A DNA stretch of 33,626 nt from a virus. Where the stretch lies: IMG/VR virus record IMGVR_UViG_3300020179_000098, positions 1 through 33,626 of that record; one strand, 5' to 3'. A program made the position numbers and the translations under genes. This document shows positions 1 to 32,434 of the stretch, in pieces. Every line of letters starts with the position of its first letter. The stretch's first letter is position 1. A model generated the notes under the pieces. The model was given only the letters and a program-made list of their open reading frames with translations. It searched no databases and was not told the DNA's origin.

Positions 1-3000
1 CTCTTACCTGTCCTGGATATGTTCAAAATCCAATTGTAAATATTACGAATCTTGTTTATGATAAAGTATCTGGAATAGCAACAATCACTACCGCAAGTAA
101 TCACTTAGCTATTAAAGGAAAACAAATTAAACTTTCTGGAATTGCTCTTACTTGTCCTAGTGGATCTGGCATTACATCTACAATATTCCCATATCCCGGA
201 TCTAGTTCAAATACATTAAGTAATTGGGATATTTTTAAAGTTAACTCAGTAATAAGTGGTACTAAATTTACTATTAATGTTGGTGTTTCTACTATTGCAC
301 ATACTTATGTTTCGGGTGGAACAGCCCAAGCCGGTATTACATCTACAATATTCCCATATCCAGGATCTTCAATCTATGGAGCTACATTTACTGTCACGGG
401 TATAACTACAAATACCTTCACATTTAATGCAGGCATTTCCACAATTATTCATAATTATGTTAGTGGCGGAATAACTAAAAAAGTTCCAACTATGCAACGA
501 GTTCTTAGATATACTGATGATAGTGGCAATGGAGCTTATGAATTTGGAGTTATTTCTGTTGCATCTACAAATACATTTACTATACAAGCTGCTCCTCTTC
601 CAACCATACCACATTACTACACTCAAGGAGGCATAGTTTCCTTTAAACAATATCAACCATTTGTATTGACAGTTGAAGAAGTTGAAACAGACAGTTTCAG
701 TGGTTTTTATCCTGGCCAATTTATAAAATTTGATGATATTTCTCAATTCTTTAATGGATTTAGGAAAAAGTTTACTCTTTCTACAACTATAAATGGGGTA
801 AGACAAGTTCTTGGACTAAGAGTTCCTGTCGGAACAAATTTAGATGTAACAAATAATATTTTTATATACATAAACGATGTATTACAGGTTCCAAATTTAT
901 CGTATAAATTCTCTGGAAGTAGAGTCATATTTACTGAGGCGCCTAAACCTGGATCAAAATGTTTTATCCTGTACTATAGAGGGTCATCTAATGATGTTGA
1001 GTTGATTGTACCACCACCAACAATTAAACCTGGAGATAAAGTAACAATTCAGGAAAATCCAGAAGATCCTTTTGATATTTCTCAATTTGATCGTGTTGTT
1101 AAAAAAGTAACGGCTTCTGACCAATTAGAAACTTTTAATTATTATTCTGTTGGGATAATAACTGATCCAACAAAAATTAGACCTCTTACTTGGCAAAAAC
1201 AAACTAGTGATACTGTGATTAGTGGTACATTATATTCCAAATCTAGACCAAATCTTCAAAGTAATATAAAACCTTCTGCAACTATCATTAAAACTATTCA
1301 ACCACAAGATACTACAATATATGTTGATAATGCATATCCTCTTTTTACCGATGTAGATGGTCTTAATGAAGATGTGAGAGATATTTTCATATTTGAAGAT
1401 AAACCTATTACACCAGCTTCAGCACAGGCTATAGTTTCTACTTCATCTACAATTTCTTCTGTTATTGTAACAAATGGTGGAGTTGGTTACGCAAATACAC
1501 AATCACCAAAAGTAGTTATTTCAAAATCTGCTATTGCATTAAAAGATCCTATTTTTGATTGGAAAAACACAACCGGTTTAACTACATCATATGATTTAAA
1601 ATCTGTACAATATAAAAACAAATTTGTAGCTATTGGAAGTAGTTCGGTTTTTGTTACAAGTTCTGATGGAATATCTTGGCAAGTTGGTACGGTCGGATTT
1701 AGTCAAACTTCCAATTTTAATTCAATTCAAGTAGTCGGTGTTGGTACAAGTAATTTGTTAGTTGCTGCAGGAACGGCGGGTAAAATTATAAGAGCTACAG
1801 ACGATGGGTCGACTATTTCTAGTTGGACTAAAATTCCACTAGAAGAAGACCTTGTTGTTCTGGGTATAGGAGCCGTAGGTAGAATAGGTAGTGCATATAC
1901 AGGAACATTTAGTCAAATAGTATATTCTAGTTATGCTAATACTTGGGTTGCTGTTGGGGCTGGTGGATCTATTTTTGTTGGTAATGGCATAAGTACAAAT
2001 AGTTTTGTTAGTAGATATTCCGAAACATTATCAGATTTTAATAGTGTTATATTTGGAAATACTTATTTTGTTGCGGTTGGCAATAATGGTACAATTCGAA
2101 CTTCTGATACTGGAACAATATGGGAAAATACTGCATCTCCAGTAACCAATAATTTAAATAAAGTAATCTATGTTAATGGAAACTTTATTATAGTTGGAAA
2201 TCAAGGAATAATTTTGAAGTCAGTTAATAAAGATACATATCAACTTATTTCAAATAATCTTGGAGCCGAAAATTTAGTAAACATATATTATAACTATGGT
2301 TTCTATGTAGCGGTGACATCTTCGGGACAATTATATTATTCCTTTAATTTAACAAATTGGGTTTACAGGAGCACATTACAATCAAAAAATATTAATGATT
2401 TAGTATTTGTAAATGATATTGGACCAGATGGCAGATATGTTATAGTTGGAACTGGAGCTACTGTAATGTATGCAGATCCAATTTATAATCCTGCAACTGC
2501 AACTGCTGTTACAAGTAATGGAAGTATTGTATCCGTACAAGTAAATAATCCAGGATTTGGTTATGTAAATGGTAGTTTTCCCCCAGTTTTAGTAGAGAGT
2601 GATACATATAAGACTGAATTTATTAGATCATTCAAAGTACAGGGAGATTTTGGAATAATTATTGGAATTACTACATATGTCGCAGGAACCTCTGGTATAG
2701 GAACTACAACTCCAAAAATCTCTTTGACTTTAAAATCTGAACAATATGATAATAGTACTTTAGGTGTAGGATACTCTGCATTGAATTCTTTTGGAATTAC
2801 TAATAGTCAGTTATCTAAAGGAGATTATTTTGTAATAACTGATAGTAATGTTCAAACTGGTGGTGACTTAGTTGGAATTACAACTTTTCTTGGTGGTATG
2901 AGTAATTATCCAAATTCTAAAATTGGGATAGCAAAATCTTTCTTAGATGGTGTTTATATTGTTGAAGATGTAACACCACCATCAGCTGGTGTAGTAACCG

Positions 3001-3239
3001 TAACATGTAACTTTGCTCCTATGGTCGATAATTATATAAAAGTTTATAGTAGAGGATCTAATAATAGTGGAATTGGGACAAATAATTTTTATGGAAGATA
3101 TAGTTGGGGTAAAATATATGACTATCAAAATAGAGTTTTAGGAAATCCTCAAACTTTTACAGCATTTAATGATAATGGAATTTCTGGAATATCCTCTTCA
3201 CCAAAAATTGTAAGAACTAGAAATATTGTAAGTAAGTAA
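1..3239 (+). CDS. Large baseplate/tail structural protein with beta-propeller (5' partial, gp7 position)
   Basis: The reading frame (codons start at base 3) is open to the left edge, so the ATG at 492 is internal and the true start lies outside the window. The first ~200 visible codons hold repeats with CPSGSG and TIFPYPG motifs that also occur in the tail fibre at 20616-27986. Bases ~760-1000 encode a beta module ending in an FTEAP / YYRGS pattern like one in the 12992-13666 protein. Bases ~1620-2480 encode seven repeats of the form (F/W/Y)VAVG...G.I..S.D...W, which fits a seven-bladed Ycf48/BNR-type propeller. Two similar V.V.NGG.GY repeats flank it (near 1461 and 2530). The protein ends in RNIVSK. 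It lies directly upstream of gp8, the place T4 gene 7 occupies; homology to gp7 itself is not shown. A virion baseplate or fibre role is inferred from context. Confidence 0.8.
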   Translation, partial: LTCPGYVQNPIVNITNLVYDKVSGIATITTASNHLAIKGKQIKLSGIALTCPSGSGITSTIFPYPGSSSNTLSNWDIFKVNSVISGTKFTINVGVSTIAHTYVSGGTAQAGITSTIFPYPGSSIYGATFTVTGITTNTFTFNAGISTIIHNYVSGGITKKVPTMQRVLRYTDDSGNGAYEFGVISVASTNTFTIQAAPLPTIPHYYTQGGIVSFKQYQPFVLTVEEVETDSFSGFYPGQFIKFDDISQFFNGFRKKFTLSTTINGVRQVLGLRVPVGTNLDVTNNIFIYINDVLQVPNLSYKFSGSRVIFTEAPKPGSKCFILYYRGSSNDVELIVPPPTIKPGDKVTIQENPEDPFDISQFDRVVKKVTASDQLETFNYYSVGIITDPTKIRPLTWQKQTSDTVISGTLYSKSRPNLQSNIKPSATIIKTIQPQDTTIYVDNAYPLFTDVDGLNEDVRDIFIFEDKPITPASAQAIVSTSSTISSVIVTNGGVGYANTQSPKVVISKSAIALKDPIFDWKNTTGLTTSYDLKSVQYKNKFVAIGSSSVFVTSSDGISWQVGTVGFSQTSNFNSIQVVGVGTSNLLVAAGTAGKIIRATDDGSTISSWTKIPLEEDLVVLGIGAVGRIGSAYTGTFSQIVYSSYANTWVAVGAGGSIFVGNGISTNSFVSRYSETLSDFNSVIFGNTYFVAVGNNGTIRTSDTGTIWENTASPVTNNLNKVIYVNGNFIIVGNQGIILKSVNKDTYQLISNNLGAENLVNIYYNYGFYVAVTSSGQLYYSFNLTNWVYRSTLQSKNINDLVFVNDIGPDGRYVIVGTGATVMYADPIYNPATATAVTSNGSIVSVQVNNPGFGYVNGSFPPVLVESDTYKTEFIRSFKVQGDFGIIIGITTYVAGTSGIGTTTPKISLTLKSEQYDNSTLGVGYSALNSFGITNSQLSKGDYFVITDSNVQTGGDLVGITTFLGGMSNYPNSKIGIAKSFLDGVYIVEDVTPPSAGVVTVTCNFAPMVDNYIKVYSRGSNNSGIGTNNFYGRYSWGKIYDYQNRVLGNPQTFTAFNDNGISGISSSPKIVRTRNIVSK
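1605..2490 (+). other. Seven-repeat beta-propeller region inside the gp7-position protein
   Basis: Seven repeats begin near bases 1620, 1755, 1943, 2066, 2183, 2302 and 2436. Each has a hydrophobic strand such as FVAIG, WVAVG, FVAVG or YVIVG, then a turn and a strand like GTIRTSDTG or GIILKS, often closed by a Trp. The spacing (~115-185 bases) and the count fit a seven-bladed propeller of the Ycf48/BNR/sialidase-like type. The region is in frame with structural sequence on both sides, so it is a domain and not a separate gene. Confidence 0.6.
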
Positions 3240-3245
3240 AAGGTA

Positions 3246-3253
3246 ACTAAATA
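3246..3253 (+). promoter_or_regulatory. Possible late promoter (ACTAAATA) upstream of gp8
   Basis: ACTAAATA lies in the 33-base gap between the stop at 3239 and the gp8 ATG at 3273. It differs from the T4 late octamer TATAAATA at two positions. The following A-run and the AT-rich sequence make chance occurrence plausible. No strong Shine-Dalgarno sequence is visible before the gp8 start. Confidence 0.35.
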
Positions 3254-3272
3254 AAAAAAAGTATATTTTAAA

Positions 3273-4868
3273 ATGCCCGCTATAATATCAGATCAATTTA
3301 GAGTTTTAAATGCTGAAAACTTTGTAAAAAGTGTTTCTGGTGTGGGCGACACATCAAACAAGTATTACACTTTTATAGGACTACCAAATAGTACTAGTCC
3401 TGCTGCTGGCGGATCTTCAAATTGGATTGCCAATACTCCATCTCCTGTAGACGGATTTAAGGAGGAATATGTAGTTAAAGAAAGTATCATATCATTAAAA
3501 CAAATCACAAGTCAGGATGTACGAAGACTTGTCAGAAAAGTTACCTGGGTAGCGGGAAACACTTTTGAAATGTACAGACATGACTATAATGTTTATAATG
3601 TTACTCCAGTTACATCTCAAACTGGTTTATATGAATCAAATTTTTATGTTATAAATGAAGATTTGAGAGTATATATTTGCCTACAAAACGGAACTGATCC
3701 CGAAAATCCAAAAGGTAGGCCATCTTTTGACCAACCTACATTTATTGATTTAGAACCAAGAGCTGCAGGAGCTAGTGGTGATGGATATATTTGGAAATAC
3801 TTATATACGATTAAACCTTCTGAAATCGTTAAGTTTGATTCTATTGAATATATACCTGTTCCCGAAAACTGGGGGAGTACGGGTGAATCAATTTCTACAA
3901 AAACCAATTCTGTTGATGGTAAAATAGAAGTTGTTATAATTAATAGCAGAGGAACGAATTATCAACCAATTTCAACATCTTTTTCAAATGTACCCATATT
4001 GGGAGATGGAACTGGAGGTAAAGCAACAATTACAATTGATTCTTTTGGTAAAGTATCTGAAGTATTTGTTACAGATGGAGGAAAAAATTACACTTATGGA
4101 ACAATACAATTTTATCCAGGAGCTCCTGGATCTGAAATAACTGGACCCCTAAAACAATTGAGTAATACTGGAATTGGTACTACTTCCATAGCATCTTTTA
4201 ATGTTATTATTCCCCCAAAAGGTGGGCATGGTTACGATATTTATCGAGAACTCGGTGCTTATAAAGTTTTACTATATTCTAGATTCGAAACCTTGGAAAG
4301 CAACCCCGATATTATTTTAGGAAATGATTTTGCTAGAGTTGGGATACTAAGAAATCCTACTATTTTAGGAAGTGATGTCCAAGTTTTAGATACTTCTGTG
4401 GTTAGTGGATTGAATGCTTTAAAATTAAGCGGAGTTACCACTAATACAACATATGCTGTAGATGCAGTTATAAAACAGACTGTTGGATTTGGATCAACAG
4501 CGATAGGATTTGTAGCCTCTTGGGATTCAATAACTGGAGTATTGAAATATTATCAACCAACAGGGCTTGCTTCAAGTGAAACTGGATTTAAAATTATTCC
4601 ATTTACTTCAAATCCAGATGTTGGATATGGAACAACAATTAATTGTTCTACGATTATTGGACCAACACTGTCAATTAACACAGGTTTTAGTGGTGTAACA
4701 ACCACAATAAATAATAGAATATATCAGTTGGGACAACAGTTTGTTGCTGGTATTTCTTCAGCTGAATATAATAAAAAATCTGGAGATATTATTTACTTGG
4801 ATAATAGACAACCTATCCCAAGATCTGCCAATCAAAAAGAAGATATTAAAATTGTATTGGAGTTCTAA
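3273..4868 (+). CDS. 8: Baseplate wedge protein gp8
   Basis: This is a T4 gp8-type subunit of the baseplate wedge. The N-terminus has the gp8 pattern FR...A.NF..S.G...N.YYTFIG, comparable with T4 gp8. The GDGYIWKYLY block (residues ~169-178) matches the GDGYVWEYLF block of T4 gp8. The C-terminal SGDIIYLDNRQP block, ending in KIVLEF, matches SGEMIYMENRPP and the final INILFTF of T4. It also has the KGGHGYDIYRELGA stretch that I associate with marine T4-like phages. At 531 residues it is much longer than T4 gp8 (334); the extra length lies mainly between residues ~185 and 430 and includes two V.EV.V...G.NY beta repeats like those in neighbouring fibre proteins. It sits between the gp7-position gene and the DUF4815 gene and ends 5 bases before the latter. 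Confidence 0.88.
   Translation: MPAIISDQFRVLNAENFVKSVSGVGDTSNKYYTFIGLPNSTSPAAGGSSNWIANTPSPVDGFKEEYVVKESIISLKQITSQDVRRLVRKVTWVAGNTFEMYRHDYNVYNVTPVTSQTGLYESNFYVINEDLRVYICLQNGTDPENPKGRPSFDQPTFIDLEPRAAGASGDGYIWKYLYTIKPSEIVKFDSIEYIPVPENWGSTGESISTKTNSVDGKIEVVIINSRGTNYQPISTSFSNVPILGDGTGGKATITIDSFGKVSEVFVTDGGKNYTYGTIQFYPGAPGSEITGPLKQLSNTGIGTTSIASFNVIIPPKGGHGYDIYRELGAYKVLLYSRFETLESNPDIILGNDFARVGILRNPTILGSDVQVLDTSVVSGLNALKLSGVTTNTTYAVDAVIKQTVGFGSTAIGFVASWDSITGVLKYYQPTGLASSETGFKIIPFTSNPDVGYGTTINCSTIIGPTLSINTGFSGVTTTINNRIYQLGQQFVAGISSAEYNKKSGDIIYLDNRQPIPRSANQKEDIKIVLEF
4859..4862 (+). promoter_or_regulatory. Ribosome binding site for the DUF4815 protein
   Basis: GGAG within the last codons of gp8, 11 bases before the ATG at 4874. 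It supports this start and suggests translational linkage to gp8. Confidence 0.5.
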
Positions 4869-4873
4869 TAAAA

Positions 4874-7800
4874 ATGGCACAAAATACTAATCTAAATACA
4901 TCTCCATATTTTGATGATTTTGATGTAACAAAAAATTATCAAAGAGTTTTATTCAAGCCAGGAACTCCGATTCAAGCGAGAGAATTAACAACCCTTCAAT
5001 CAATATTACAAAATCAAGTTGAAAAGTTTGGAAAACATTTTTTCAAAGAAGGACAAGTAGTAATACCTGGAAATGTAGCATATGATTCTGAATATACTTG
5101 TGTTCAAATAGATCCAACACACTTAGGAATTCCTGTAGTTGCATATCTTGATAAGTTAATAGATAAAAAAATAAAGGGAGAAACTAGTGGAGTATTTGCT
5201 AAAATTGAAAGATATATTACTAGTGAAGAGTCTGAAAATAATAATTATACTTTGTATATAAAATATCAAAGTTCTAGCGATACAAATTTTTCAACTAGTA
5301 AATTTATAGATGGAGAAAATCTTCTAGTATTAGAAAATATAGACTATGGTCAAGGAGTTATTAGATTAGATTCTTCATTTGCTACTGCTATCATTTCTGG
5401 ATCTACGGCTACAGGATCTGTTATTAAAATCGAAGAAGGTGTTTATTTTATAAGAGGATTTTTTGTAGATGTTTTTCCACAAGCCGTAATATTAGATCAG
5501 TATACCAACTCTCCATCATATCGTGTTGGATTATCCATTTTTGAAGATATTGCCGTGCCTTCCCAAATAAATGCAGATTTATTTGATAATGCACGAGGAT
5601 TTTCTAATTTTGCTGCTCCTGGTGCTGATAGACTCAGAATTGTTGCTAGTTTAATAAAAAAATCACTTGATGATTTTAACGATGAAAATTTTGTAGAATT
5701 ATTAAGGATTGAAAACGGAGAGATTAAAAAAGTTTCTAAAAAACAAGACACAGTTAGTTTAATAACCGACGAATTGGCAAGAAGAACAAATGATGAATCA
5801 GGAGATTATTATGTAAAACCCTTTAGTGTAGTAGCTAAAGAATCATTAAATAATGCACAGGGAAACAATGGAGTTTATAATCTTCGTCAACTAACAAAAC
5901 AAGGAAATACACCTTCGAATGATTTATTAACCTTACAGATTTCTCCTGGAAAGGCGTATGTTAAAGGATATGAAGTAGAAACTCAGATAACCATAAATGC
6001 AGATTTAGAAAAACCTAGAACTACAGAGTCAGTAAAAGACACTACTGTTCCCTTTACTCTAGGTAACATAGTAGAAATTAATAATGTTTATGGAGCAGTT
6101 CCCGTAGGATTTGGAACAACGAGTCAAGTGTCTTTGTACTCAAAAAGAACCTCAACTCCGGGTGTTGTTTCAGGAATTCCTATAGGTATTGCCAGACTTT
6201 ATGATTTAAAGTTAAAATCTTCCGGATATTCGAACGCTGCTAGTGTTTTCGAATCTGCATCTTATGATATACAGACATATACATATTTGCAATTAAATGC
6301 TACATTAACTTTATCTAGACCAGCATTTATTGAAGGGAAAAATAGTTCTGCATCTGGATTTTTAGCTATAAATGCTTCAAACTCTAATCAATTGGTGTTA
6401 TACCAAGTTTCTGGAACTTTTTCAGCTGGTGAACAATTAAAAGTTGATGGACAAGATATTTCTAGAACAGTAACTGCTGTTAGAGATTATAATTTAAGTG
6501 ATATAAGACAATTAGTTGGATTTAATGGAGCCACAACAGTATTTACTGCGGACACTGTGATATCTCAAGCAATACCTATTGCACCTCAAAATACCAGTTT
6601 TACTATTTCTGCTGCTGCTGGTGGCATAAGTAATGTAACATCATCTAATTCAACATTTGGAGTTGGAATTAATACAGGAGATATTTTTGTTTATACAAAG
6701 TCTAATGATACACTACCAACATTTAATAGAGTAACTTCAGTAAATGCTGCTTCAAAAACTATTCAAATTGAAGCCACTACTGCTGTTACCGGCGTTAATG
6801 TTGGTACATTACCTTCAACTGCAACAACTCTCACTGGCCTAGTGAAAGGAATTTCTGTACTAGAAAATCCAACAGATTCATACTTTTATGCCGAATTAGA
6901 TAACACAAATATTTCAAATGTTGATATATCAGAAGGAGAGATAGTTTTTAGAAAATCATATTCAGTAACTGTTGCATCAAATGGTTTGACAGCGACTTTA
7001 GAAAGTGATACTAATCTTACTCTAGAGCCTTTTGATGAGGAAGACTATGCATTAGTCTATAGTAATGGAGTTGTAGAACCGTTAACTAAAAACCAGTTTA
7101 CAATTACTGCTGCCAGAACTTTAACTTTAGTTAATTTATCTCAAAATGGCTCTGCTACATTAACAGCAACTTTACGAAAAAGAAAATTAAAACCAAGAAA
7201 GAAAATTTATAATAGATGTGCAATATTAGAAATCAATAATTCAAGTACAACTAAATCTGGAATAGGTAGCACAACTCTTAATGATGGACTAATATTCAGT
7301 CCTTATTATGGAACAAGAGTTCAGGATGCAAAAATTTCATTAAATGTACCTGATGTAATTTTTGTTTCTGCAATTTTTGAATCTTCAGATAATAATTCCG
7401 CCGATTTGCCAAAATTAGAAGTTATTGATTTAAATGCTAATATTTTAAATGCAATAAAAGGTGAGATTGTTTATGGTGAAACGAGTAGTGCTTTGGCGAT
7501 GTTTGTTGAAACTAACGGAACAAATCAATTTGGATTCGTTTATATTAATGAAAATACTTTCCTTAAAGATGAAAAAATTGTTTTTAGTGAATCAAATATT
7601 ACTGCAAAAGTAAGTTTATTAATAGAGGGAGATCGAAATATAGTATCAGATTTTACTTTTAACGATGGGCAAACTCTTGAAATCGCTGATTTTTCATTTT
7701 TAGTAAGAAAAGATGGCGTTACCGCTCCAACAAAGAAATTAAAAATTGTATTCCACCATTATTACATAGATGAAAATGATGATGGAGATTTTGTTACTGT

Positions 7801-14807: not shown

Positions 14808-15176
14808 ATGAATATTTACGAGTACAATTCATCTACTATTAATCATTACTCTATAGAAGATTGTGGAAATTTTTCCACCTCTATAGGGATAGATGACTAT
14901 GGCGATTTGAGTGAACAAGTTAACAATAAAGAAGATTTTTATCAAATAAATTGTATAACTACACTAGTTCCCTTTGGATCTATAAATGTAAAAGGATCTA
15001 AAACCAAATATGCAAACAGTTCTAGAGAATTTAGGATATTAATTGATCTCAATAAAAAGTCAATAGTTTTACATGGAATAATTATTCGTTGGATTGGATC
15101 AAGTATTCTATTTCAACTTTCAAACGATTTGCGTAGGAATGTAATTCCAGATGTTTCTGGTGGGGGTAAATTATGA
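14808..15176 (+). CDS. Short protein with one unit of the adjacent YDYN-type fibre repeat
   Basis: The frame is open from a TTG at 14748, but that codon is in the terminator, so I use the ATG at 14808 (122 residues, MNIYEYNSS...). Residues ~3-65 (YEYNSSTI, DDYGDLSEQ, LVPFGSINVKGS) match one unit of the repeat in the following 1799-residue protein (YDYNNDS, DDYGLI, PFGTISI.G). The remaining ~55 residues diverge and end in DVSGGGKL. The stop overlaps the next start (ATGA, 15173-15176), so the two are translationally coupled. It could be a partner chain or chaperone of the giant protein, or a leftover of repeat duplication; nothing decides between these. Confidence 0.65.
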   Translation: MNIYEYNSSTINHYSIEDCGNFSTSIGIDDYGDLSEQVNNKEDFYQINCITTLVPFGSINVKGSKTKYANSSREFRILIDLNKKSIVLHGIIIRWIGSSILFQLSNDLRRNVIPDVSGGGKL

Positions 15177-18100
15177 GTACCCCTAATGTATATTCTTATG
15201 ATTGTAAACAACCAGATCCAGAAATTTGGGGTGGTGGATCAACAACTGGTCTTTTCACAATAACATCTGGATCAGAATACGCAGAAAAAATATTTTATAA
15301 TTATGATTTAAAAGTTACTCCAGGATCCTCTGCAATAGGTTCTTTAACTTTTTCTGGAGAAACTATTTCAAGTTATTTAATTAAAAAATACATTGGAGAT
15401 TTTCCAACATACTTATTTTCTGGTAAAGGAATTTATCAAGTATTTTATAATTTTTCATCATCTGAACAAAATATTGCTCTTATTGGTAATGCAAATTATT
15501 CTTTCATATCTTCAGAAATAAGTCAAGAAGCTTCTATTGACTATTCTGGATTTATAATTGAAAAAGTAACATATGATTATAATAATGATTCTACAGTAAT
15601 ATTTTCTACTGTAGATGATGGTCTTATTGCATCATCTCTAACTCAAATTGATAATTATGGTCTGGTAACAGATCCTTTACAGGAACATGTTGATTGTGGA
15701 AGCACAGAAATATTATCCACTACAACTGCTTTAAGTGGTGGATTTACACTTTCAAATGCAGCTACTTATAGGTACATATCAGTAGATCCTCTTGCAATAA
15801 CAACTGCAGTACTATCTACACACGGAGATGAAAGTCTAACTTATCGTCCACCTATTAATGAAAGACTATATCAAAGTTACTTTGGATTTATTGGAGTAAC
15901 TTTTGATAATGATCAAATAACATTTGATTCAAAGGAAGAAGTTCCCGACATTAAATTAACAGGAAGTGCATCTAATCAATATGTAATATTCAATACTCCT
16001 GAACAAACTATTGATGTAGTTTCTACAATATCCTCAATAGAAAGTAGAGGCCATTCTTATAATGATAGTTCTATTGGCAGTTTTGGACTAGATGATTTTA
16101 GTACATTAATTGGATCACCAACTTCAACTCTAGATTATGGTTCAGTGTCATCTCCTTCAAATCAAGGAGATGAAGATTTTGGATTTGTATTTGATACAAA
16201 TAATTCTATTCTTCCTTTTGGTGATATCACACTCTCCGGATCGGCTTTAGTAAGACCACCAGATGATATTAGAACTTATAATACTGGTGCAAGTTACAGA
16301 GTAACTTATAATCCTCCAGAAAATACTTCTTCACTCTTTACATTTGGAGAAAAATTAGAATCAGTTGTTTATGATTATAATAATGATTCCGCAAAATTTG
16401 TAGAAACAGAGTCTTTAGGATTAATTAGTTCTGGTTCAACTGAGATAGATGACTTTGGTTTACTGGAAGGAGTCCTTACAGAATTTATAAATTATGAAGA
16501 AATTGATATTGTAACTACAAACTTCCCATTCGGAACATTAAGTGTTAATGGGTCAGCAAATGTAGAATATACTAATATTAACTTCTATGGTTATGTATTA
16601 GGAGCCGAGGTTAAAGTTGTTTATAGTCCAGATGATACAACTGGATCACTCTTTAGTTTTGGTCAAAATATTGAGTCAATGGTTTATGATTATAATAATG
16701 AGTCGGTCATACCATTCACTGTTGAAAATTCTGGACTAATAACCTCTGGTGTAAGTGAATTTGAAAATTATGGAAATATTTCAGAAATTAGTACTGGATT
16801 TGAAGAATATGGTGCAATTGAAATTGTTTCTCAATCCATACCATTCGGTAACATTTTAATTAATGGTTCGGCAAATACTGAATATACAAATATTAATTTC
16901 TATGGTTATATTTTAGGAGCAGAAGTTAAAGTTGTTTATAGTCCAGATAACACTACTGGATCACTGTTTAGTTTTGGTGAAAGGGTTGAATCTATAGTTT
17001 ATGATTATAATAATGATTCCATTGTCTTTATATCAGATCCTGACTACGGATTCATAACTTCATCTCCAACAAGTTCCGAGTCTTATGAATTAATTTCTAA
17101 TGTTGCATCAATTCTAGATGATTATGAAACTATATTGGGTCCAAGTATTTCTACAGATACCTATCCATTTGGTTCTCTTTATCTTTCTGGAACATCTGAA
17201 GAAAAAAATACAGAATCTTATGCGTCCAGTGTTGGTGGAACACAAATTACGCTTTCTGGTGCATCCACAAATCTACAATTTGTTGCACAGCCATCAGAAG
17301 ATGTTGTTCTATACAATATATCTGGTTCCGCTGGAATTACACCAGTACGTTATTCAGAAGTTGGATCTGGATCTCTATTTGGATTTGGAGAAAAATTAGA
17401 ATCATTTACTTATGATTATAATGATTTGTCTGCCAATGTACTGGAAACTCAGAACAATGGTCTAATAACAGATTCTTCAACAAGTCTTGATGATTATGGA
17501 TTAATATCAAATCCAGTAAGTGAACTTGAAGTTTATGGAGAAGTTGACTTAACCTCTACTGTAACTCCATTTGGTACTATTTCTATTATTGGTAATGCAG
17601 ATATAGTATACCGTAATGCAAACTTCTATGATTATCCAGTAACTTCCATAGTCCGAGTTACATATAGTCCAGATAATACCGAAGGAACTTTATTTGCATT
17701 TGGTGAAAAGTTAGAATCCGTAACTTATGACTATAACAATGAGTCTCTATTAACATTTGATATTGATAATTTTGCATTATTAACAGATGCAATAACCAAT
17801 ACCGATGATTATGGATTTGTAAATGAAGTATATGGTGAACAAATTGATAATGGTTTAGATACTGGTCTTGGAGAAAGTCAAACTATAACTCCATTTGGAG
17901 GTCTGACAATCTCGGGAACATCTGGAAATGTTCTTCGTACATATGACGAAGAAAATGCGGTTCTATTTACAATTTCTGGATCACTCAGTTATCCAAATAT
18001 TGATTATACTCCTTCTATTACTGGCATTGGAACAGTTTTTGTTTCTGGTTCTGCATCATATGCGTTTATTAATGTTGATCCTGTAACTCAAGTTCCTACT

Positions 18101-20572
18101 ATCATTGTTAATGAATCTCTGATTGAATCTAGAACACATTCATATAATGAAAGTTCTATTGTAATAGATGTAACTCCAAGTTATGGTTTAATATCCGATC
18201 CTACAACAGAAACTGGCGATGATTATGGATCTGTCGTTGGTTCCAGTGGAGAAACTATCGAATTAGGATTTATATCTGTTGGAGTTCAAAGTGCATATCC
18301 ATTTGGAACAATAACAATTTTCGGTGGATTGATACATCCAGAAATAGATTATACTCCAAAGTATGTTGGTACTGGTGTTCTTAATATCAATGGATCAGCT
18401 ACTTACAACGAAACTGATGCGTTTGGTGTTGGTAGAAGACGTGGTGGAACTATTAATCTTTGCGGTGATGCTTTATACTCCGAAACTGATGCTTATATTG
18501 GACTAGGAACAATCTTTGTAAGTGGTGATGTAAGTAATGTACAAGAAATAGATTCCTATGTTGGTTCTGGAATTATAAGTCTTTCTGGAACTGCTTTAGA
18601 AAGTGATCTTGAAGAATTTGTTGGCTCTGGAATAATTTCAATCTCTGGAACAATTACAGAAAGAAATACAGAATCGTATGTTGGTTCCGGAACTACAGGA
18701 ATCAAGTTATTTGGAGAATTATTACATCCAAATATTGATTATACTCCACATTATGGTATTGAAAAGAATATTGGTATTGGAACTACTGGAATTCAAATTT
18801 CTGGTGTTGTTGGTGAGTCGGATGCAGAGTCTTATGTTGGCCTTGGATCAGTACTTGTTGTTAATGGACTCAGCCCTCAGGATACAGAAGCTTATCCTGG
18901 TGGTCCTGCTGTTGGAAAATCTTGGAGCTTTACAAGAGCATCATATATTGCTCAAGGTTCCCTTACAATTTCTTCTGGAATTGCACAAACTCATTATTAT
19001 TCACCAATATACCCAAGAAATGCTCTCATTGGTGATCCTGGATCTGGAACAGGAACTATCAGAATTAATGATGATAACCAAATTACATTCTACAGAGCAA
19101 CTTTACCAATATTTGCTAAAGGTTCAATTTATATTCTTGGAATTGGTACTGCAGCAAATGGCAATCTTAATGGTGTAGAAATTGGAGCAAATGAAAGCTT
19201 TACTCCAGCAACAGAAATTGGATCTGGACTCTTCACATTCTCTGGTATTGCTTCTGCAAGAGAGATTGCATCATATCAAGATTATGTAACTGGTGGTGTA
19301 ATTACAATTTCTGAACAGACTGTAGGAATTATTGAAAAGAATACTGAAGCTTACTTTGGATCTGGAACTATATTTGTCTCAGAATCTCTTATAGAACGCA
19401 ATACTGAATCTTACTTTGGATCTGGAACTTTATTTACTCTATCTGGAGGTTCTGAAGCATACTCGGCTCAGACTCCAGAAGAAACAATTACATTAACAAT
19501 TTCCGGAAGTGCTCAGGAATCCTTTGTTTCTCAGATTCCAGAAAATACAATTCTATATCAGTTTGTTGGTGCGGCAACTGATGAAAAACTTATTAAAGCT
19601 TATGTTGGCTCTGGATCGGCAACTATTAGTGGATCTACAACGGTAAGATTTACACCATCACATCTAGCTACTGGAACGATTCGTTTTGTACCTACATTTA
19701 GGGTTGATGATGATTATATTTCATGTGATAGTGATGTAGAAAATATACTTCCACTTGTTAATCAACCAGTTCTTAATGATACATCAATTACTTTTGATAA
19801 TTCAAATGTTACTTTTGACAATCAGATATTTAGATCTAGCGCCTCTGTAACTTGTGATAGACAAGATAATGGAATTGTCAAATTTGTTGCGAATCCACCA
19901 GAAGATACTATTCTATTTAATATTGATGGAAACGCAGTTACTTCTGAAACTGCCCTATACACAAAAACTTCAGTTGGACTCTTTACACTATCTGGAACAT
20001 ATCAGAGTCTCAAACTTGTTTATTCTGAATCTGGAATTGGTACAGTATTCATTACATCTATATCAAGTGAAAGTGAAAGAGATGTTTATGTTGGATCTGG
20101 AAATCTCTTCACATTATCTGGAAGATCTGAGTCTTACTCTGCACAGACTCCAGAATCTACAATTATTCTTAAAATTTCTGGATCTGCACTTACATCCATA
20201 GAATCGGAATACTCGGTTGTTGGTATTGGTTTATTTGTATTCAATGGATCAGGAATTACTTCAAAGATTACATCATATACTCAAATTGCATCTGGAAATA
20301 TAACCATTTCTGGTCAACTTGTTCATCCAAATATTATCTTTATACCATCTCCAGACGGCTCTGGTACTATCAATATTCTGGGATCTTCAAATAATTCTCT
20401 TACAAAAGTATACGAAGATACTACAGTAACTTTATTTACATTCTCTTCTGGATTTGAATCATTAACTAAATCTACTTATATTGGCGTCGGAACAATTTAC
20501 ACTCAACAAATTCTTGCATCAACTATTAACAACCCATATCAAATTCCAAGAGCATACGTCTGCATCATTTAA
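15173..20572 (+). CDS. Giant repeat-built tail fibre-like protein (1799 residues)
   Basis: I do not recognise a named family. The start is supported by GGGGG at 15162-15166 and by the ATGA overlap with the upstream gene. Residues ~1-40 (YSYDCKQPDPEIWGGG) look like a unique cap. Residues ~130-1060 hold eight copies of a ~105-residue unit: YDYNN(D/E)S, a DDYG-type loop, PFG.I.I.G, then VVYSPD.T.GSLFSFGE. Three consecutive YDYN motifs are exactly 315 bases apart. Residues ~1060-1430 hold shorter ~20-residue beta repeats of the form (E)SYVGSG.I.ISG, and further V..SG...F.LSG repeats run to the end, which is IPRAYVCII. There is no transmembrane segment, and beta structure should dominate. It lies between structural proteins and the S74 fibre, so a long fibre is the most likely role (inference). 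Confidence 0.75.
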   Translation: MSTPNVYSYDCKQPDPEIWGGGSTTGLFTITSGSEYAEKIFYNYDLKVTPGSSAIGSLTFSGETISSYLIKKYIGDFPTYLFSGKGIYQVFYNFSSSEQNIALIGNANYSFISSEISQEASIDYSGFIIEKVTYDYNNDSTVIFSTVDDGLIASSLTQIDNYGLVTDPLQEHVDCGSTEILSTTTALSGGFTLSNAATYRYISVDPLAITTAVLSTHGDESLTYRPPINERLYQSYFGFIGVTFDNDQITFDSKEEVPDIKLTGSASNQYVIFNTPEQTIDVVSTISSIESRGHSYNDSSIGSFGLDDFSTLIGSPTSTLDYGSVSSPSNQGDEDFGFVFDTNNSILPFGDITLSGSALVRPPDDIRTYNTGASYRVTYNPPENTSSLFTFGEKLESVVYDYNNDSAKFVETESLGLISSGSTEIDDFGLLEGVLTEFINYEEIDIVTTNFPFGTLSVNGSANVEYTNINFYGYVLGAEVKVVYSPDDTTGSLFSFGQNIESMVYDYNNESVIPFTVENSGLITSGVSEFENYGNISEISTGFEEYGAIEIVSQSIPFGNILINGSANTEYTNINFYGYILGAEVKVVYSPDNTTGSLFSFGERVESIVYDYNNDSIVFISDPDYGFITSSPTSSESYELISNVASILDDYETILGPSISTDTYPFGSLYLSGTSEEKNTESYASSVGGTQITLSGASTNLQFVAQPSEDVVLYNISGSAGITPVRYSEVGSGSLFGFGEKLESFTYDYNDLSANVLETQNNGLITDSSTSLDDYGLISNPVSELEVYGEVDLTSTVTPFGTISIIGNADIVYRNANFYDYPVTSIVRVTYSPDNTEGTLFAFGEKLESVTYDYNNESLLTFDIDNFALLTDAITNTDDYGFVNEVYGEQIDNGLDTGLGESQTITPFGGLTISGTSGNVLRTYDEENAVLFTISGSLSYPNIDYTPSITGIGTVFVSGSASYAFINVDPVTQVPTIIVNESLIESRTHSYNESSIVIDVTPSYGLISDPTTETGDDYGSVVGSSGETIELGFISVGVQSAYPFGTITIFGGLIHPEIDYTPKYVGTGVLNINGSATYNETDAFGVGRRRGGTINLCGDALYSETDAYIGLGTIFVSGDVSNVQEIDSYVGSGIISLSGTALESDLEEFVGSGIISISGTITERNTESYVGSGTTGIKLFGELLHPNIDYTPHYGIEKNIGIGTTGIQISGVVGESDAESYVGLGSVLVVNGLSPQDTEAYPGGPAVGKSWSFTRASYIAQGSLTISSGIAQTHYYSPIYPRNALIGDPGSGTGTIRINDDNQITFYRATLPIFAKGSIYILGIGTAANGNLNGVEIGANESFTPATEIGSGLFTFSGIASAREIASYQDYVTGGVITISEQTVGIIEKNTEAYFGSGTIFVSESLIERNTESYFGSGTLFTLSGGSEAYSAQTPEETITLTISGSAQESFVSQIPENTILYQFVGAATDEKLIKAYVGSGSATISGSTTVRFTPSHLATGTIRFVPTFRVDDDYISCDSDVENILPLVNQPVLNDTSITFDNSNVTFDNQIFRSSASVTCDRQDNGIVKFVANPPEDTILFNIDGNAVTSETALYTKTSVGLFTLSGTYQSLKLVYSESGIGTVFITSISSESERDVYVGSGNLFTLSGRSESYSAQTPESTIILKISGSALTSIESEYSVVGIGLFVFNGSGITSKITSYTQIASGNITISGQLVHPNIIFIPSPDGSGTINILGSSNNSLTKVYEDTTVTLFTFSSGFESLTKSTYIGVGTIYTQQILASTINNPYQIPRAYVCII
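16547..17020 (+). repeat. 315-bp tandem repeat within the giant fibre gene
   Basis: Residues 459-511 and 564-616 of the 1799-residue protein share about 45 of 53 residues (NGSAN.EYTNINFYGY, LGAEVKVVYSPD, TTGSLFSFG). The motif gtttatgattataataatga starts at 16367, 16682 and 16997, an exact period of 315 bases (105 codons). High nucleotide similarity indicates fairly recent duplication. The other copies in the gene are more diverged. Confidence 0.85.
18340..19450 (+). repeat. Short beta repeats (SYVGSG type) in the giant fibre gene
   Basis: A run of ~20-residue units, each with an aromatic-Gly-SG turn followed by a strand: DAYIGLGTIFVSG, DSYVGSGIISLSG, EEFVGSGIISISG, ESYVGSGTTGIKLFG, EAYFGSGTIFVSE, ESYFGSGTLFTLSG. 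Twice they are interrupted by a LLHPNIDYTP or LIHPEIDYTP segment. Regular short strands of this sort suggest a fibrous beta stack. Confidence 0.75.
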
Positions 20573-20615: not shown

Positions 20616-23600
20616 ATGACTAAGCAGGTACAGATAAGAAGGGGTACTACTGCCCAGCACGCCGTTTTCACTGGAGCTCTTGCAGAGGTTACTTATGATA
20701 CAGATAAAAAGACTCTAATAGCTCATGATGGAAGCACTATTGGTGGTATCGAACTTGCAAGAAAAGATTTTGCAAATGTAAGAAAAGCAGAATTTCCAGA
20801 AACTTTAAAAGTTGGTTTTAATACTGATCCAAATTACATAACAGGACTTACAGGTAACTTAAATGTTGCTGGTGTAACTACATTTGCTGGTATTGTTACT
20901 AGTGGAATGTCAACAACATCCAGCATGTCTTCATGGGATGTTCAAATTGGTTACGGAAATACAGCATTTATTGTTAATGGAAATCAATATATTGGCGGAA
21001 TTTCTACAGTAGTTACAACTAGAGGTACAACTGCTACATTCAACAACTTCAATGTAACTGGACATGGAACTACAACATTTACTCTTAATACTTATGTAAC
21101 ACAAGCTTCTGGCATTGGAAATACTGTCGTAGCTGTAGCTTCTATTGAGGGTGTTGCAATTGGAGATGTTGTAAGTATTGGAACATACTTTAGTAATGTT
21201 GTTATTACTGGATTCGGTCAAAGCACTGTAGGAACATCATTTAATTCTGATTTCTTACATACAACAATTTCAACAACAGTAAGTGCAGGATCAACTATTA
21301 TTTCTGTTGCAAGTACCGCTGGAGTTTCCATTGGCAATTCCTTTAGTATTTCTGGTGTAGGAACAAATGTTCCTATTGTAGGATTTACTACTGTATCTCT
21401 TCCAATTGTACATGTAAATATTGGTTTCACTAATGTCACCGCCATAGCTAGTATTGGCGCTACTATTGTAGCTGTCGGAGATACTGGAGGAGTTTCTGTA
21501 GGAAGTTCTTTAAGCACTGCAACAGATGGGGCTCGTGACGGTCAAATTAATAATGCAAGAATTGTAGGACTTACTACTGCGACTAGACCAGCTTATAATT
21601 CACAATTTATTAGTACAACACTAACTGGTAATGTTGGAGTAGGAGTAACTATCATCCCATTCACTCCTACTACTGGAGTTTCTATTGGAAACTCTGTCAC
21701 TGTAAGTGATGTGGGTGGTATTTATATTGTCGATGCGCCTATTGTTGGAGTAAACACCAATTCAGTTGTAATTCCTGTTGGTTCTGCTTCTACTGTTTTA
21801 ATTACAAGTTCTGGAATTGTCGGAGTTAGCACTATCAGAACAGATTCTGCAGCTGTTATACTTTCTTCTGCAATTGGCATAGGGCTTACAGTAGGTAAAG
21901 AAATTTTATTCAGCAATCCAACTTTCCCAGTAACTCCAGCATTCTTGATTGGAGTTGGAAATACTTTTGCTGTTGGACTTTCTTCCGGAACAACTGTCGC
22001 TGTTTCTACAGTAACAAATAGTTCTCCAGCAATTACTGTTGGATATAGTTCAGTAAGTGCATATCAAATTCCATATTTACAATCAGTAAATATTCAAAGA
22101 ATTCAAAACGATAATAGTAGAATTAATATTCAAAATGGATCATTTAAGAATCTAGAAGTCGTTGGAATTGCTACCATCAATGGATTGACTTTCCCGACAT
22201 CAGATGGCCTTGATGGTCAAGTTCTATTTACTGATGGCCAAGGTAATATTGGATTTACAACAGGCGGCGGCGGATCTGGATCTCAAGTTCTAGTTAGAGT
22301 TTCTCAAGCAACTGGAAGTGATTCTAATGATGGAAGAACTAAGCCTGTTCAATCCATCAAAAAGGCAGCTCAAATTGCTTCGTTCTTGGGTTACTACTTT
22401 AATACTGGTGCTACAATTATTGTAGAGTCTGGTGACTATATTGAAGATAATCCAATTATTCTCTACGATAATGTTAATATTATTGCCGACTCTCTTAGAA
22501 ACGTAGTTATAAGACCATTAAATGCTGGTATTGACTTCTTCAAGGTAAGAAATGGTAACTATATCACCGGACTTACCTTTACAGACTATATTAATCCCTC
22601 AACTAGAAATCCTCAACATACTTTTGAATATGCAATTTCATATGATGAACCATTTAATACTTCACTAAGTAGAACTGGTTATGCATGTACTGGAGTTCTA
22701 ACAGTTCAAAATGCAACATATGATCAATACACTGGAATCACCACAATCACCACATCGACTCCACATGAATTATATCCAGGAAATACAGTAAGACTTGCAG
22801 GACTTGGTTGGACTTGTGGATATGATGAAACTGGTATTAGTAGTTTCAGATATAATGAAACAGCTGGTATTGGTACAATCACTCTTCGTTCTGCCCCAAA
22901 TAGAACTGAAAATGGAGGAAGTTACATAATTGGTGAAAAGTTATTCTTACATAATCTACCATTTGCATGTTCTTCTGAACACCTTGGCGTAACCACGACT
23001 ATTTTCCCGGATGGAACAGCTCCAACAAAATACTCTTTTAGTATTACTGGGGTTAACACTGCAGCAAAAACTGTTACAATTAATGTTGGTGTGTCTACAA
23101 TCGCACATCAATACCTTGGATATCAAAAACTAGGTATTAGTACATATGTTTATACTAATACTACAGGTATCAGCACTGCTACAACCAGAGAAGCTCATGG
23201 ATATAAGATTAATGATAAGATTACTTTAACAGGTCTTGCGTTCACCTGTCCAGGTGGTTCAGGTATCACTACAACCATCTTCCCTGATGGAACAATTACA
23301 GATTATAATGTTGATGGATATACATTTAACATTACGGGAGTAACCACAAATAGCTTTACATTTAATGTTGGTATTTCTACAATTCCACATACCTACAGTG
23401 GATTTGGTGCAGTAGGAGTTAGCACATTCATTTATACAGCCTCCACGGGGGTTGCAACTTGCGTTGTTGCATCTGCACATGGATTGGAATCTGGTGACTA
23501 TGTAACTCTTACTGGACTTACATTCTCTTGTCCAGGTGGTTCTGGCATCACTACAACGATTTTCCCAGATGGAACTTCTCCATATGGTTATACTTTCCGC

Positions 23601-26600
23601 GTAAGTGCTGTAGATAATTCAACAACCTTTACTATTAATGTTGGTGTTTCTACTATTCCGCATTCTTATGTAAGTGGCGGTACAGCTGCAAAAGTTGCAA
23701 CAGTAGAAAAAGTACCAACAATTCAAAAGGTTCAATTCTACCCAGATCAAAATACAACAGGAATCAGAGATTTTGGTATTATCTCTGCTGCTTCTACAAC
23801 TACATTTGCAATTCGTGGTCCAAGTTTTTCTACGATTCCTCATTATTACGTTGCTGGAATTGGTGGAACTGCAGTGCTCAGTAAGCCACAAATTTTCAAA
23901 TCTCCATACATTCAAAACTGTACAATTCTTTCCAGTCTTGGTGGTAATGGTATTCTTGTTGATGGTGACAAGGTAATTTCTCCAAATGTACCTGCGGTGC
24001 AACTTCTTGCAGAAAACCCACCAGTAGGAGATATCCCCGAGTTTGGTAAATCAATGGTTGCTGCAACTTTTACCATGATCTCCTTTGACGGTATTGGTTG
24101 GAGGGTTATTAATGATGGATATTCTCAGGTTGTATCTTGTTTCCAGATCTTCTGTCGTTACGGATCATTAGCACAGTCTGGTGGATATCTGTCCATTACT
24201 AACTCTGCTACAAACTTCGGTACAATAGCTCTTAGAGCTACTGGATTCTCTCCAAATGCTTTTGTATTTGATAGAGGGCGTATCGCTGCAACAGGTACTT
24301 CTGGTGGTCTACAAACACTCAGAGTTATCGGTGTTGGTAGAACAGAACAAGAACTCTATGTTCTCAGATTCCTTGATAATGCTGGAGTTGATAGAACAAG
24401 TCTCTTTAAACCAATCGTTGTAGAGGCTACTGTTAACCCATCGGTGGGTGTTAATACTAATACAGATATTATTACTATTGCTGGACATCCATTTGTGGAT
24501 GGAGACAGTGTTGTATACTTGGGTAATGAAAGTGCAGAACCTCAAGTAGTAATTCAAGGTCTTGTTAATGGTAATATCTATTATGTACAATATATTTCTG
24601 CATCTACATTCAAACTTTATGAAGATGATTCATTCAGAAGATCTGTAGACCTTCGTTCAGCTCCATCTGGTATTAATACATTCCAAAAGAATAACCAAGA
24701 ATTTATTGTAGATGAAATTATTGATGCTCACTCACAATATCAGAATCTGACCTTAGCAAGTGTTGGATCTACTGCAATATTCAAATCTGGTCAACAAATT
24801 ACACAATCTGTAACCGGTGGGACTGCAACTGGTTTTGCTCTTACATATCATAATTCTTCAAGATCACTTATAGTTTCAGTTGAAGCCGTTGGTGGAGTAA
24901 GAAGATTCTTCTCAACAACTGGTGGGAATATTGTTGATCACGGAGGATCTCCAATAGCAGTAGGAGTAACACAAATTGCAGGAATTACAACATATAGAAC
25001 AATTGAATTTAAAGTAGATTCAACCGTAACTGGTAATGTAATTCAAGGTATTGGAAGTCTTCCAGTTACCTATAGATGTAATCTACATAGACCATCTATT
25101 GTTAACTCCTCATCACATACATGGGAATTCTCTGGTTCTGGTACTGACTATAATGCACTACCACAAAACGGTGGTAAGTCAGATCCAACTTCGGAACAGG
25201 TATCTGAACTTGGTGGTCGTGTATATGCTTCTGGTACTAATGAACTCGGTGACTTCAAGATTGGTAGTCAGATTACTGCATTCAACAGAACTGGTAACAT
25301 TATCTTCAACAACAAGGTATCTATCGGAGAACTTGATTCTATCCGACTAACCCTCTCTGGTGGTGTTGCTGTTGAAGAATTCTCTACCGATACCAACCTC
25401 GGTGAAGGAGAACTTGGTGGACCTCTCAATAAGAGAGTTTCAACTCAGTTAGCTGTTAGAAGTTTCATGTCTAATAGACTCGGAACCTTTATTGATAAAA
25501 CAGTATCTCAGAACGCTGTTCCAAACGCAGTTGTTCAGTTGAATTCTTCTGGACAAATCAACCCAGACCTCATTCCACCAAAAGTTGTTAACTATACAAG
25601 AACAAACGTTTCTACTGGTAGAACTGTACTTGTTAATGAAATTCCAGCCATCAACATTCTCAATGGTGACACTGTTGTTGAACCAGATCTGTCATATGTT
25701 CTTATTCAAGATGTCGTAGGTCAATACCTAATTCTTGATGGTGATTCTGCAGACTATAACTTCAATAATGGTGATAGTGTAGTCAGTGCTCTTGCAGCTG
25801 CCGCAGTTGGCGTTGTAACTGTGCCACCAATTGGCGTTGGAATTGGTACTACAATTTCTCCTTATGTTGGTTATGGTGCAACTGGTCTTGTTAAGGGTGT
25901 TCTACTTGGAGCTCCAATCCAAAATGGTGGTTCTGGATATACAACTCCTGGTATTTACACTTGTTTCTTACAATCTACAACTGGTATTGGTACATCAGCT
26001 CTTGCAGAAGTTACAGTTAGTGCCGCAGGTACAGTAAGAGATGTTAATATTAAGACTGGTGGACGCTACTATCAATCTGGAAATATTCTTACTGCAATTG
26101 ATTCTGAAGTTGGTGGAAGATCTGGTGGTGGAGCATTCACTGTTATAGTAAATGATGTAGAAACAAGACTCTATCTCAAACTTACAAATAATCAGAAGTT
26201 TGCAGGAACTGTTGCACTTCCAGACTACATTGCTGACGGAAATGCAGTTGGTATTTCTACAACTCTTAACCTTGATGTATCTTATGAAATTGATCCAACT
26301 ACAATTGAAACTGGTGGTGATGTTGACTTCCCGAATGATAGAATTGTTCTTGGAGTTGGACATACATTCCAAAATGGAGATGCAGTTAAATATGTAACAA
26401 ATGGTGGAACAAATATTACTGGTGTTATTGAAGATACTACTTATTATGTTAAGAGAGTTGGTGTTTCCTCTGTCGAACTACACTCAACATATGCAATTTC
26501 TTCAAGACAAGACCTATCTGGTAGTGGAATTGGAACACATGCCCTAATAAGATGTGGTGTTTCAACCTCTAAAGATACAATTACCTTCGTTAATCATGGA

Positions 26601-30806: not shown

Positions 30807-30880
30807 AAAACATCATAAAAATAGTATAATATATAGTATGTTAAAACATATTGAAGTTTGTTAATTTTTGGAGAATATTA
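30807..30880. promoter_or_regulatory. Divergent intergenic region with -10-like element
   Basis: Very AT-rich spacer between the divergent oxygenase and halogenase genes. TATAAT at 30825-30830 is a perfect sigma70-type -10 hexamer for the plus strand, but no clear TTGACA lies about 17 bases upstream. There is no TATAAATA octamer here, so this cassette may be expressed at a different time from the flanking late genes. Confidence 0.4.
30870..30874 (+). promoter_or_regulatory. Ribosome binding site (GGAGA) fixing the halogenase start
   Basis: GGAGA six bases before the ATG at 30881. It favours that ATG over the in-frame TTG at 30851. Confidence 0.7.
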
Positions 30881-32434
30881 ATGAGAATTAATAAGGTCGT
30901 GATTGTTGGCGGCGGAAGTTCGGGATGGATGACTGCAGCGGGACTATGTAAAAATTTTGATGATTTAGATGTAACACTCATTGAATCTAAAGATATTAAA
31001 ACAATGGGTGTTGGCGAGTCTACTCTTGGTCAATTTAATAGTTTTTTACGACTAATTGGTCTAGATAAAGACGATTATTGGATGAAAGAAGTTGACGGTA
31101 CATATAAAATTTCTATTAAATTTACAGATTTCAGAGAAAAAGACTCTGTATTTCACTACCCATTTGGCCATCATAATGCAGAAAATATTCCTAGAGGATT
31201 GGATTGTTGGCCCTTGTTAAGGCAGATAAATCCAGAATACAATACTTTAGAAAAATTTGCTAGATTTTACCATCCTTTTGTTCATCTTGCTGAAGAAGGT
31301 AAGATGACGTATAACGATGATGATAGTTTAGTAGGTTTTAAATTTAAGAGTGATACTGCATACCATATAGATGCTATCAAATTTGGAATATTTTTAAGAG
31401 ATAAGATTTGTTTGCCTGCAGGCGTTCATCATATTACTGAAGAAATTATTGATATTAAGAAAAAAGAAAATGGAGATATTGATTATCTCTTATCTGAATC
31501 TGGAATAAAATTAGAAGCAGATCTTTTTATAGACTGTACAGGATTCAAGTCACTTCTTCTTGAAGAAACAATGGGATCTAAATTTATTTCATTTAATGAA
31601 ACTTTGGTCAATGATAAAGCATTGGCTGCAAAAGTTCAGTATAATGATATTGAAAAAGAAATGGAAAATGTTACAAATTGCACTGCTATTAAAAATGGGT
31701 GGGTTTGGAATATTCCACTATGGAATAGAATTGGTACAGGATATTGTTATTCAAGTAAATTTGTTTCAAGAGAGCAAGCTGAAATTGAATTTAGAAACCA
31801 TCTAAAAAAACAAGGAAAAGAATTGCCGGATGATTATGAATTCAATGAGATTAATATTCGTCATGGTAAAAGAGAAAAAGGTTGGGTAGGAAATGTTCTT
31901 GGTGTTGGTCTTTCTTACGGATTTATTGAACCTCTAGAATCTACCGGACTATTAACAACTCATGAAAACATTTATAAGTTAGTCAGAACTTTACAAAGAA
32001 GAGATCGTTGGGTTTGTGGTCTTGATAAATCTATCTACAATAGATGGTTAGATGAACTATTAGATGGATGTAGATCTTTTATTGAGATGCACTATGCACT
32101 TTCAATGAGAGATGATACTGAATATTGGAAACATGTCACAAGTATCCCATATATCAATGAATATGATGTTCACCAATTAGAAGTTGGTGTTTTTAGGCAT
32201 CCAAACTTTGGTGGATTAATTGGAGGACTTCCATATATTGCTGCTGGTATGGGTTATCTCCCAACATATGTTTTAGGAACTGGTGCTCCAGGAAGTGGAA
32301 CAATTTCTCCCGAAGAAGTTGAGTACTTTAATGATATCAATAAACAATTTATGATGTTTACAGACCAAATTAAAGCGTATGTAGACACACTACCTACACA
32401 TTATCAATTCTTAAAAGACAATATTTACTCATGA
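30881..32434 (+). CDS. Flavin-dependent halogenase (tryptophan halogenase family)
   Basis: A 517-residue protein, a typical length for the family. Halogenases of this type use FADH2, O2 and halide to make HOX, which reacts via a lysine with the substrate. Visible motifs are the FAD-binding VIVGGGSSGW (residues 7-16), GVGEST (43-48), the catalytic Lys76 in GTYKISIKF (PrnA Lys79 position), the diagnostic W274-x-W276-x-I-P motif, and EPLESTG (350-356), which includes the conserved Glu region. All expected residues are present, so activity is likely. A marine cyanophage relative (VirX1, phage Syn10) has been described as a flavin-dependent halogenase that prefers iodide. No flavin reductase is visible nearby; the host must supply FADH2. 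Its stop overlaps the next start (ATGA, 32431-32434). The substrate is unknown. Confidence 0.88.
   Translation: MRINKVVIVGGGSSGWMTAAGLCKNFDDLDVTLIESKDIKTMGVGESTLGQFNSFLRLIGLDKDDYWMKEVDGTYKISIKFTDFREKDSVFHYPFGHHNAENIPRGLDCWPLLRQINPEYNTLEKFARFYHPFVHLAEEGKMTYNDDDSLVGFKFKSDTAYHIDAIKFGIFLRDKICLPAGVHHITEEIIDIKKKENGDIDYLLSESGIKLEADLFIDCTGFKSLLLEETMGSKFISFNETLVNDKALAAKVQYNDIEKEMENVTNCTAIKNGWVWNIPLWNRIGTGYCYSSKFVSREQAEIEFRNHLKKQGKELPDDYEFNEINIRHGKREKGWVGNVLGVGLSYGFIEPLESTGLLTTHENIYKLVRTLQRRDRWVCGLDKSIYNRWLDELLDGCRSFIEMHYALSMRDDTEYWKHVTSIPYINEYDVHQLEVGVFRHPNFGGLIGGLPYIAAGMGYLPTYVLGTGAPGSGTISPEEVEYFNDINKQFMMFTDQIKAYVDTLPTHYQFLKDNIYS

Follow-up and report, generated by a model that had tools for sequence, protein, structure and literature searches.

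Introduction

Beta-propellers are known from the baseplates of other phages, among them the five-bladed propeller of the phi11 RBP, which has a GlcNAc-sized cavity, and the seven-bladed propeller of phiKZ gp131C, located at the baseplate periphery, and host binding has been inferred or proposed for both the phi11 and phiKZ gp131 propellers (PMC4901313). In each of these cases, the propeller belongs to a separate peripheral baseplate protein, and the analysis showed no link in sequence to the gp7 propeller described here. Much closer counterparts are found in gp7 of the Synechococcus phages S-SSM7, Sf-FS3, and S-SCSM2R, which contains the same propeller as the window (the whole stretch of DNA analyzed here, a viral record of 33.6 kb), with 36-38% identity over the propeller, and in gp7 of S-CAM9, S-8S56, and DSL-LC03, where a more distant propeller (~30% identity to that of the window) occupies the same site. 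In both the S-SSM7 and S-CAM9 types, the insertion lies between two GGxGY modules, has seven blades where these were counted, and includes a long connection between blades 2 and 3. Existing annotations of these proteins go no further than baseplate wedge initiator, "large exoprotein," or "YHYH domain," and literature searches found no paper in which a cyanophage baseplate and a propeller are combined. The same gene in S-SM2, P-SSM2, and Bellamy encodes a gp7 that has both GGxGY modules but lacks the propeller, with the modules joined directly to one another.

Results

The original prediction, made from the letters of the sequence, placed a seven-bladed propeller at positions 1605 to 2490 of the window, within a structural protein upstream of gp8. 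The features that bear on this are as follows, all on the plus strand.

3 to 3239: last 1078 aa of gp7 (baseplate wedge initiator); a single ORF, its 5' end open at the contig edge
645 to 1400: conserved stretch of gp7 preceding the cassette (residues 215-466), serving as the anchor region and as the basis of the tree
1416 to 1529: first GGxGY module (residues 472-509)
1542 to 2489: seven-bladed beta-propeller cassette (residues 514-829), from predicted fold and blade motifs
1623, 1758, 1944, 2067, 2184, 2304, and 2436: blade motifs 1 to 7, VAVG type
1839 to 1907: long blade 2-3 connection (residues 613-635), from alignment
2493 to 2600: second GGxGY module (residues 831-866)
2607 to 3236: conserved gp7 C-terminal domain (residues 869-1078)
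3273 to 4868: gp8, baseplate wedge subunit (PF09215, phrog_438)

Identity of the propeller-bearing protein

The gene directly downstream is indeed gp8, in the same gp7-gp8 order as in annotated phages, and the structural protein can be named more exactly as gp7 itself. The ORF at 3-3239 matched phrog_2885, "baseplate wedge subunit," in a PHROG search (E 1.4e-88) and the 3001-aa gp7 of S-SSM7 by tblastn (40% identity over 95%), and these matches, together with the adjacent gp8, identify it on sequence grounds as the C-terminal part of a T4-like cyanophage gp7. A profile search gave no match between this gp7 and the solved T4 gp7, and a fold search with the model of a propeller-less gp7, which was of mid-confidence only (mean pLDDT 65), returned no credible PDB match.

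A predicted seven-bladed propeller

The repeats noticed originally are in frame, lying within the one open frame from 3 to 3239, and their number was also correct. Seven regularly spaced blade motifs fall within residues 541-821, with none in the rest of the ORF, compared with 0.08 on average and a maximum of 2 when the residues of the segment were shuffled. The VAVG motif is a loose one, reading VAAG in blade 2 and VAVT in blade 6. AlphaFold2, run with 48 related sequences, produced four-stranded blades with block means mostly of ~90 pLDDT over the segment, and the predicted fold aligned with seven-bladed propellers over ~280-300 residues (Z ~27-29, rmsd 2.5-3 A; Foldseek and VIA-align). Residues 514-829 are thus confidently predicted to form a propeller of seven four-stranded blades in a closed ring. 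A conserved KDPIxxW marks the start of the domain near nt 1542, ~60 nt earlier than thought.

Blade 2 is linked to blade 3 by a longer connection at the same place in every aligned propeller, including those of S-CAM9 and DSL-LC03, which suggests that these distant propellers and that of the window share common descent. From the order of secondary structure elements listed for the predicted model, the N-terminal segment also appears to complete the last blade as its outer strand, an arrangement that would leave the two termini of the domain side by side.

An empty site in related gp7 proteins

The two similar GGxGY repeats reported to bracket the propeller are real, and the impression of an inserted cassette is borne out by gp7 proteins without it. 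Only ~10-25 residues separate the two modules in gp7 of S-SM2, P-SSM2, Bellamy, S-SCSM1, SynMITS9220M01, S-B05, and others. Among IMG/VR loci, all 80 of the closest gp7 relatives of the window carry the propeller, inserted at this site, and none of 80 loci of the S-SM2 type does, 3 of these being cut near the site. The distance from the anchor region to the end of the protein is bimodal: once contigs that end or are broken inside the gp7 gene are set aside, it is 566-631 aa in proteins with the propeller and 259-338 aa in those lacking it.

Judging by sequence matches, gp7 proteins with the propeller are a small minority among GenBank phages: 12 records matched the propeller (E <= 1e-3), and 397, not all of which need be gp7, had a match to any part of the full query. 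Only two loci were recovered when viral contigs were scanned with the S-CAM9 anchor region. In one locus (L131), the gp7 frame is split into several ORFs, with a break also inside the propeller, possibly as a result of sequencing errors. Propellers of this kind are carried by a subset of the viruses that infect cyanobacteria in marine and fresh waters, at one fixed site in a tail-baseplate protein.

Inheritance and selection

In a tree of the anchor region without DSL-LC02, gp7 proteins with the propeller group on a single branch (support 100/95, recovered in 99% of bootstrap trees). When DSL-LC02, which has a very long branch, was included, a quick tree needed two changes, and the tree with a single clade was not rejected (p-AU 0.33). 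Identity in the propeller correlates with identity in the anchor region (r = 0.95), and this, together with the single branch, points to roughly one gain or loss of the propeller, after which it was passed on with gp7. Swapping of the propeller as a module between phages is not favored, given the same correlation. As the tree is unrooted, its direction has to be judged from distribution, and gain rather than loss is favored because gp7 proteins without the propeller are common and, to our knowledge, T4 gp7 has none.

The propeller is under purifying selection, yet it evolves faster than its flanks. Its whole-domain dN/dS is mostly 0.14-0.29, compared with ~0.05-0.22 for the anchor region and the C-terminal region, and its identity is lower than that of the anchor region in 96-100% of pairs. 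Values in this range indicate that the domain is being maintained and is not decaying. Diversifying selection was not seen, the whole-domain dN/dS being well below 1.

Relatives outside gp7

The blade motif of the gp7 propeller is that of generic VAVG/DGxxW propellers (DUF6242 type), such as those of Limnohabitans phage DC31 and of an IMG/VR contig, 3300032323_000894 (L087), which has two ORFs at 2338-6976, 701 and 725 aa long, that are rich in VAVG/DGxTW repeats. These are stand-alone proteins of 600-730 aa rather than parts of gp7, and they gave the top profile scores outside gp7, at 177-219 bits. Outside gp7, the propeller has its strongest relatives in the two L087 ORFs. Some generic VAVG/DGxTW propellers just pass the Pfam model for DUF6242 (PF19755, gathering score 29 bits). 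The propellers in gp7 score below this cut-off, that of DSL-LC03 reaching 18.4 bits and that of the window having no match to the model at E <= 0.1.

Discussion

The reading that we favor, at a probability of roughly 0.5, is that a generic propeller was inserted into gp7, has been inherited there, and provides an extra contact surface on the baseplate wedge. A VAVG/DGxxW propeller would have entered a single lineage of T4-like cyanophages as an in-frame insertion in the short linker that joins the two GGxGY modules, and would have been passed on with gp7 since. If the chain enters and leaves the propeller side by side, as closure of the last blade by the N-terminal strand would imply, the ring could occupy the linker without disturbing the fold of the wedge. 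Six copies may then be displayed around the baseplate, where their surface might bind a component of the host surface, either glycan or protein, or help to position the fibers during adsorption. That the phages also encode dedicated tail fibers is a point against a role in host contact. Since one domain of a core baseplate protein is cleanly either present or absent in abundant viruses of cyanobacteria, its role in adsorption or assembly is directly testable by comparing gp7 with and without it.

The strongest competitor, to which we give a somewhat lower but still substantial chance, is that the propeller serves as an internal docking platform for another baseplate or fiber protein and does not contact the host. 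This is consistent with the function of gp7 as a wedge scaffold protein, with the inheritance of the propeller under purifying selection, and with the high conservation of some of its loops, namely FxLxxW in blade 6 and AGGS in blade 3. Most gp7 relatives form a baseplate without a propeller, however, and the propeller changes more quickly than the parts of gp7 that flank it, both of which speak against this reading. Conservation over the propeller loops gave no clear signal of a hypervariable face, so docking fits as well as adhesion does, and the two readings stay close, with the contact surface preferred. A bolder version of the contact surface is conceivable, although we consider it doubtful: through a propeller held between tandem GGxGY modules, gp7 itself could constitute a six-fold host-binding surface that acts independently of the tail fibers, an adhesion module of a type not previously described.

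A likeness to sialidase/BNR repeats had also been suggested, and propellers do occur in several glycosidase families, which raises the idea of a glycan-degrading enzyme of the sialidase or depolymerase type. Five members of the family weakly matched the glycosyl_F510_1955 model, but no BNR or sialidase Pfam model was matched, the canonical Asp-box (S/T-x-D-x-G-x-T-W/F) is absent from the window and occurs singly in 5 of 30 relatives, and no catalytic set was identified in the propeller. With neither Pfam matches nor Asp-boxes, a sialidase is not supported, and an enzymatic role of any such kind appears improbable.

The resemblance to Ycf48, a photosystem II assembly factor, is real but weak, and the possibility raised with it, that a host Ycf48 was captured and fused to gp7, did not hold. 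The propeller matched the Ycf48 family model PF14870 at 35 bits (cut-off 27), phmmer matched Ycf48 PDB chains at E 2.6e-6, and the top Foldseek match is Ycf48, which, like its counterpart HCF136, shares the seven-bladed fold. Only 7 of 30 relatives matched PF14870 (E <= 0.01), however, and the curated equivalog model for Ycf48, NF010237, gave 30.8 bits where 326 are required, about tenfold short. In the other direction, profiles of the phage propeller missed the Ycf48 PDB chains, and of 24 cyanobacterial Ycf48 proteins, 19 were unmatched and none exceeded 37 bits, whereas generic propellers and repeat proteins from phages and bacteria reached 116-219 bits. Any match to the phage propeller was confined to 7 of 292 cyanobacterial genomes, with the two strongest being proteins other than Ycf48 that have generic DGxTW repeats. 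Ycf48 has a conserved Arg patch (PMC10403576). Positions that are Arg in at least 90% of the 24 Ycf48 proteins align to other residues in the window propeller or fall outside the match, and the alignment itself is built of non-collinear pieces. A tail-tip scaffold would also be an unlikely site for a lumenal assembly factor, and literature searches found no link between phage baseplates and Ycf48. The equivalog score, the profile comparison, the missing Arg patch, and the non-collinear match together rule out capture of Ycf48 from the host for practical purposes, and by sequence the propeller is of the generic bacterial and phage type, not a stolen photosynthesis protein.

It follows that a PF14870 label on a phage protein need not imply photosystem biology, since generic propellers can just pass its cut-off. 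Among the structural matches was a protein of a marine phage that carries the name "photosystem II stability/assembly factor" and may be a case of this.

Several other genes in the window were also noted. The 2456-aa tail fiber at 20616-27986 has an N-terminal Mtd_N (major tropism determinant) domain and a C-terminal Peptidase_S74 chaperone domain. A repeated module, GITTTIFP...GVSTIxHxYVSGG, is found both in this fiber and in the gp7 stretch at 36-640, ahead of the anchor region, and the two have the same PHROG matches (phrog_17885 and phrog_3442), as if this module were circulating among tail proteins. The ORF at 15173-20572 encodes a protein of 1799 aa in which degenerate repeats are numerous (e.g., GTLFAFGEKLESVTYDYNNES) and which had no Pfam match and matched only phrog_11522 (function unknown) among PHROGs. 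An ORF at 30851-32434 matched the tryptophan halogenase PHROG phrog_2928 (E 1e-155) and has 2OG-Fe(II) oxygenase-like ORFs on both sides.
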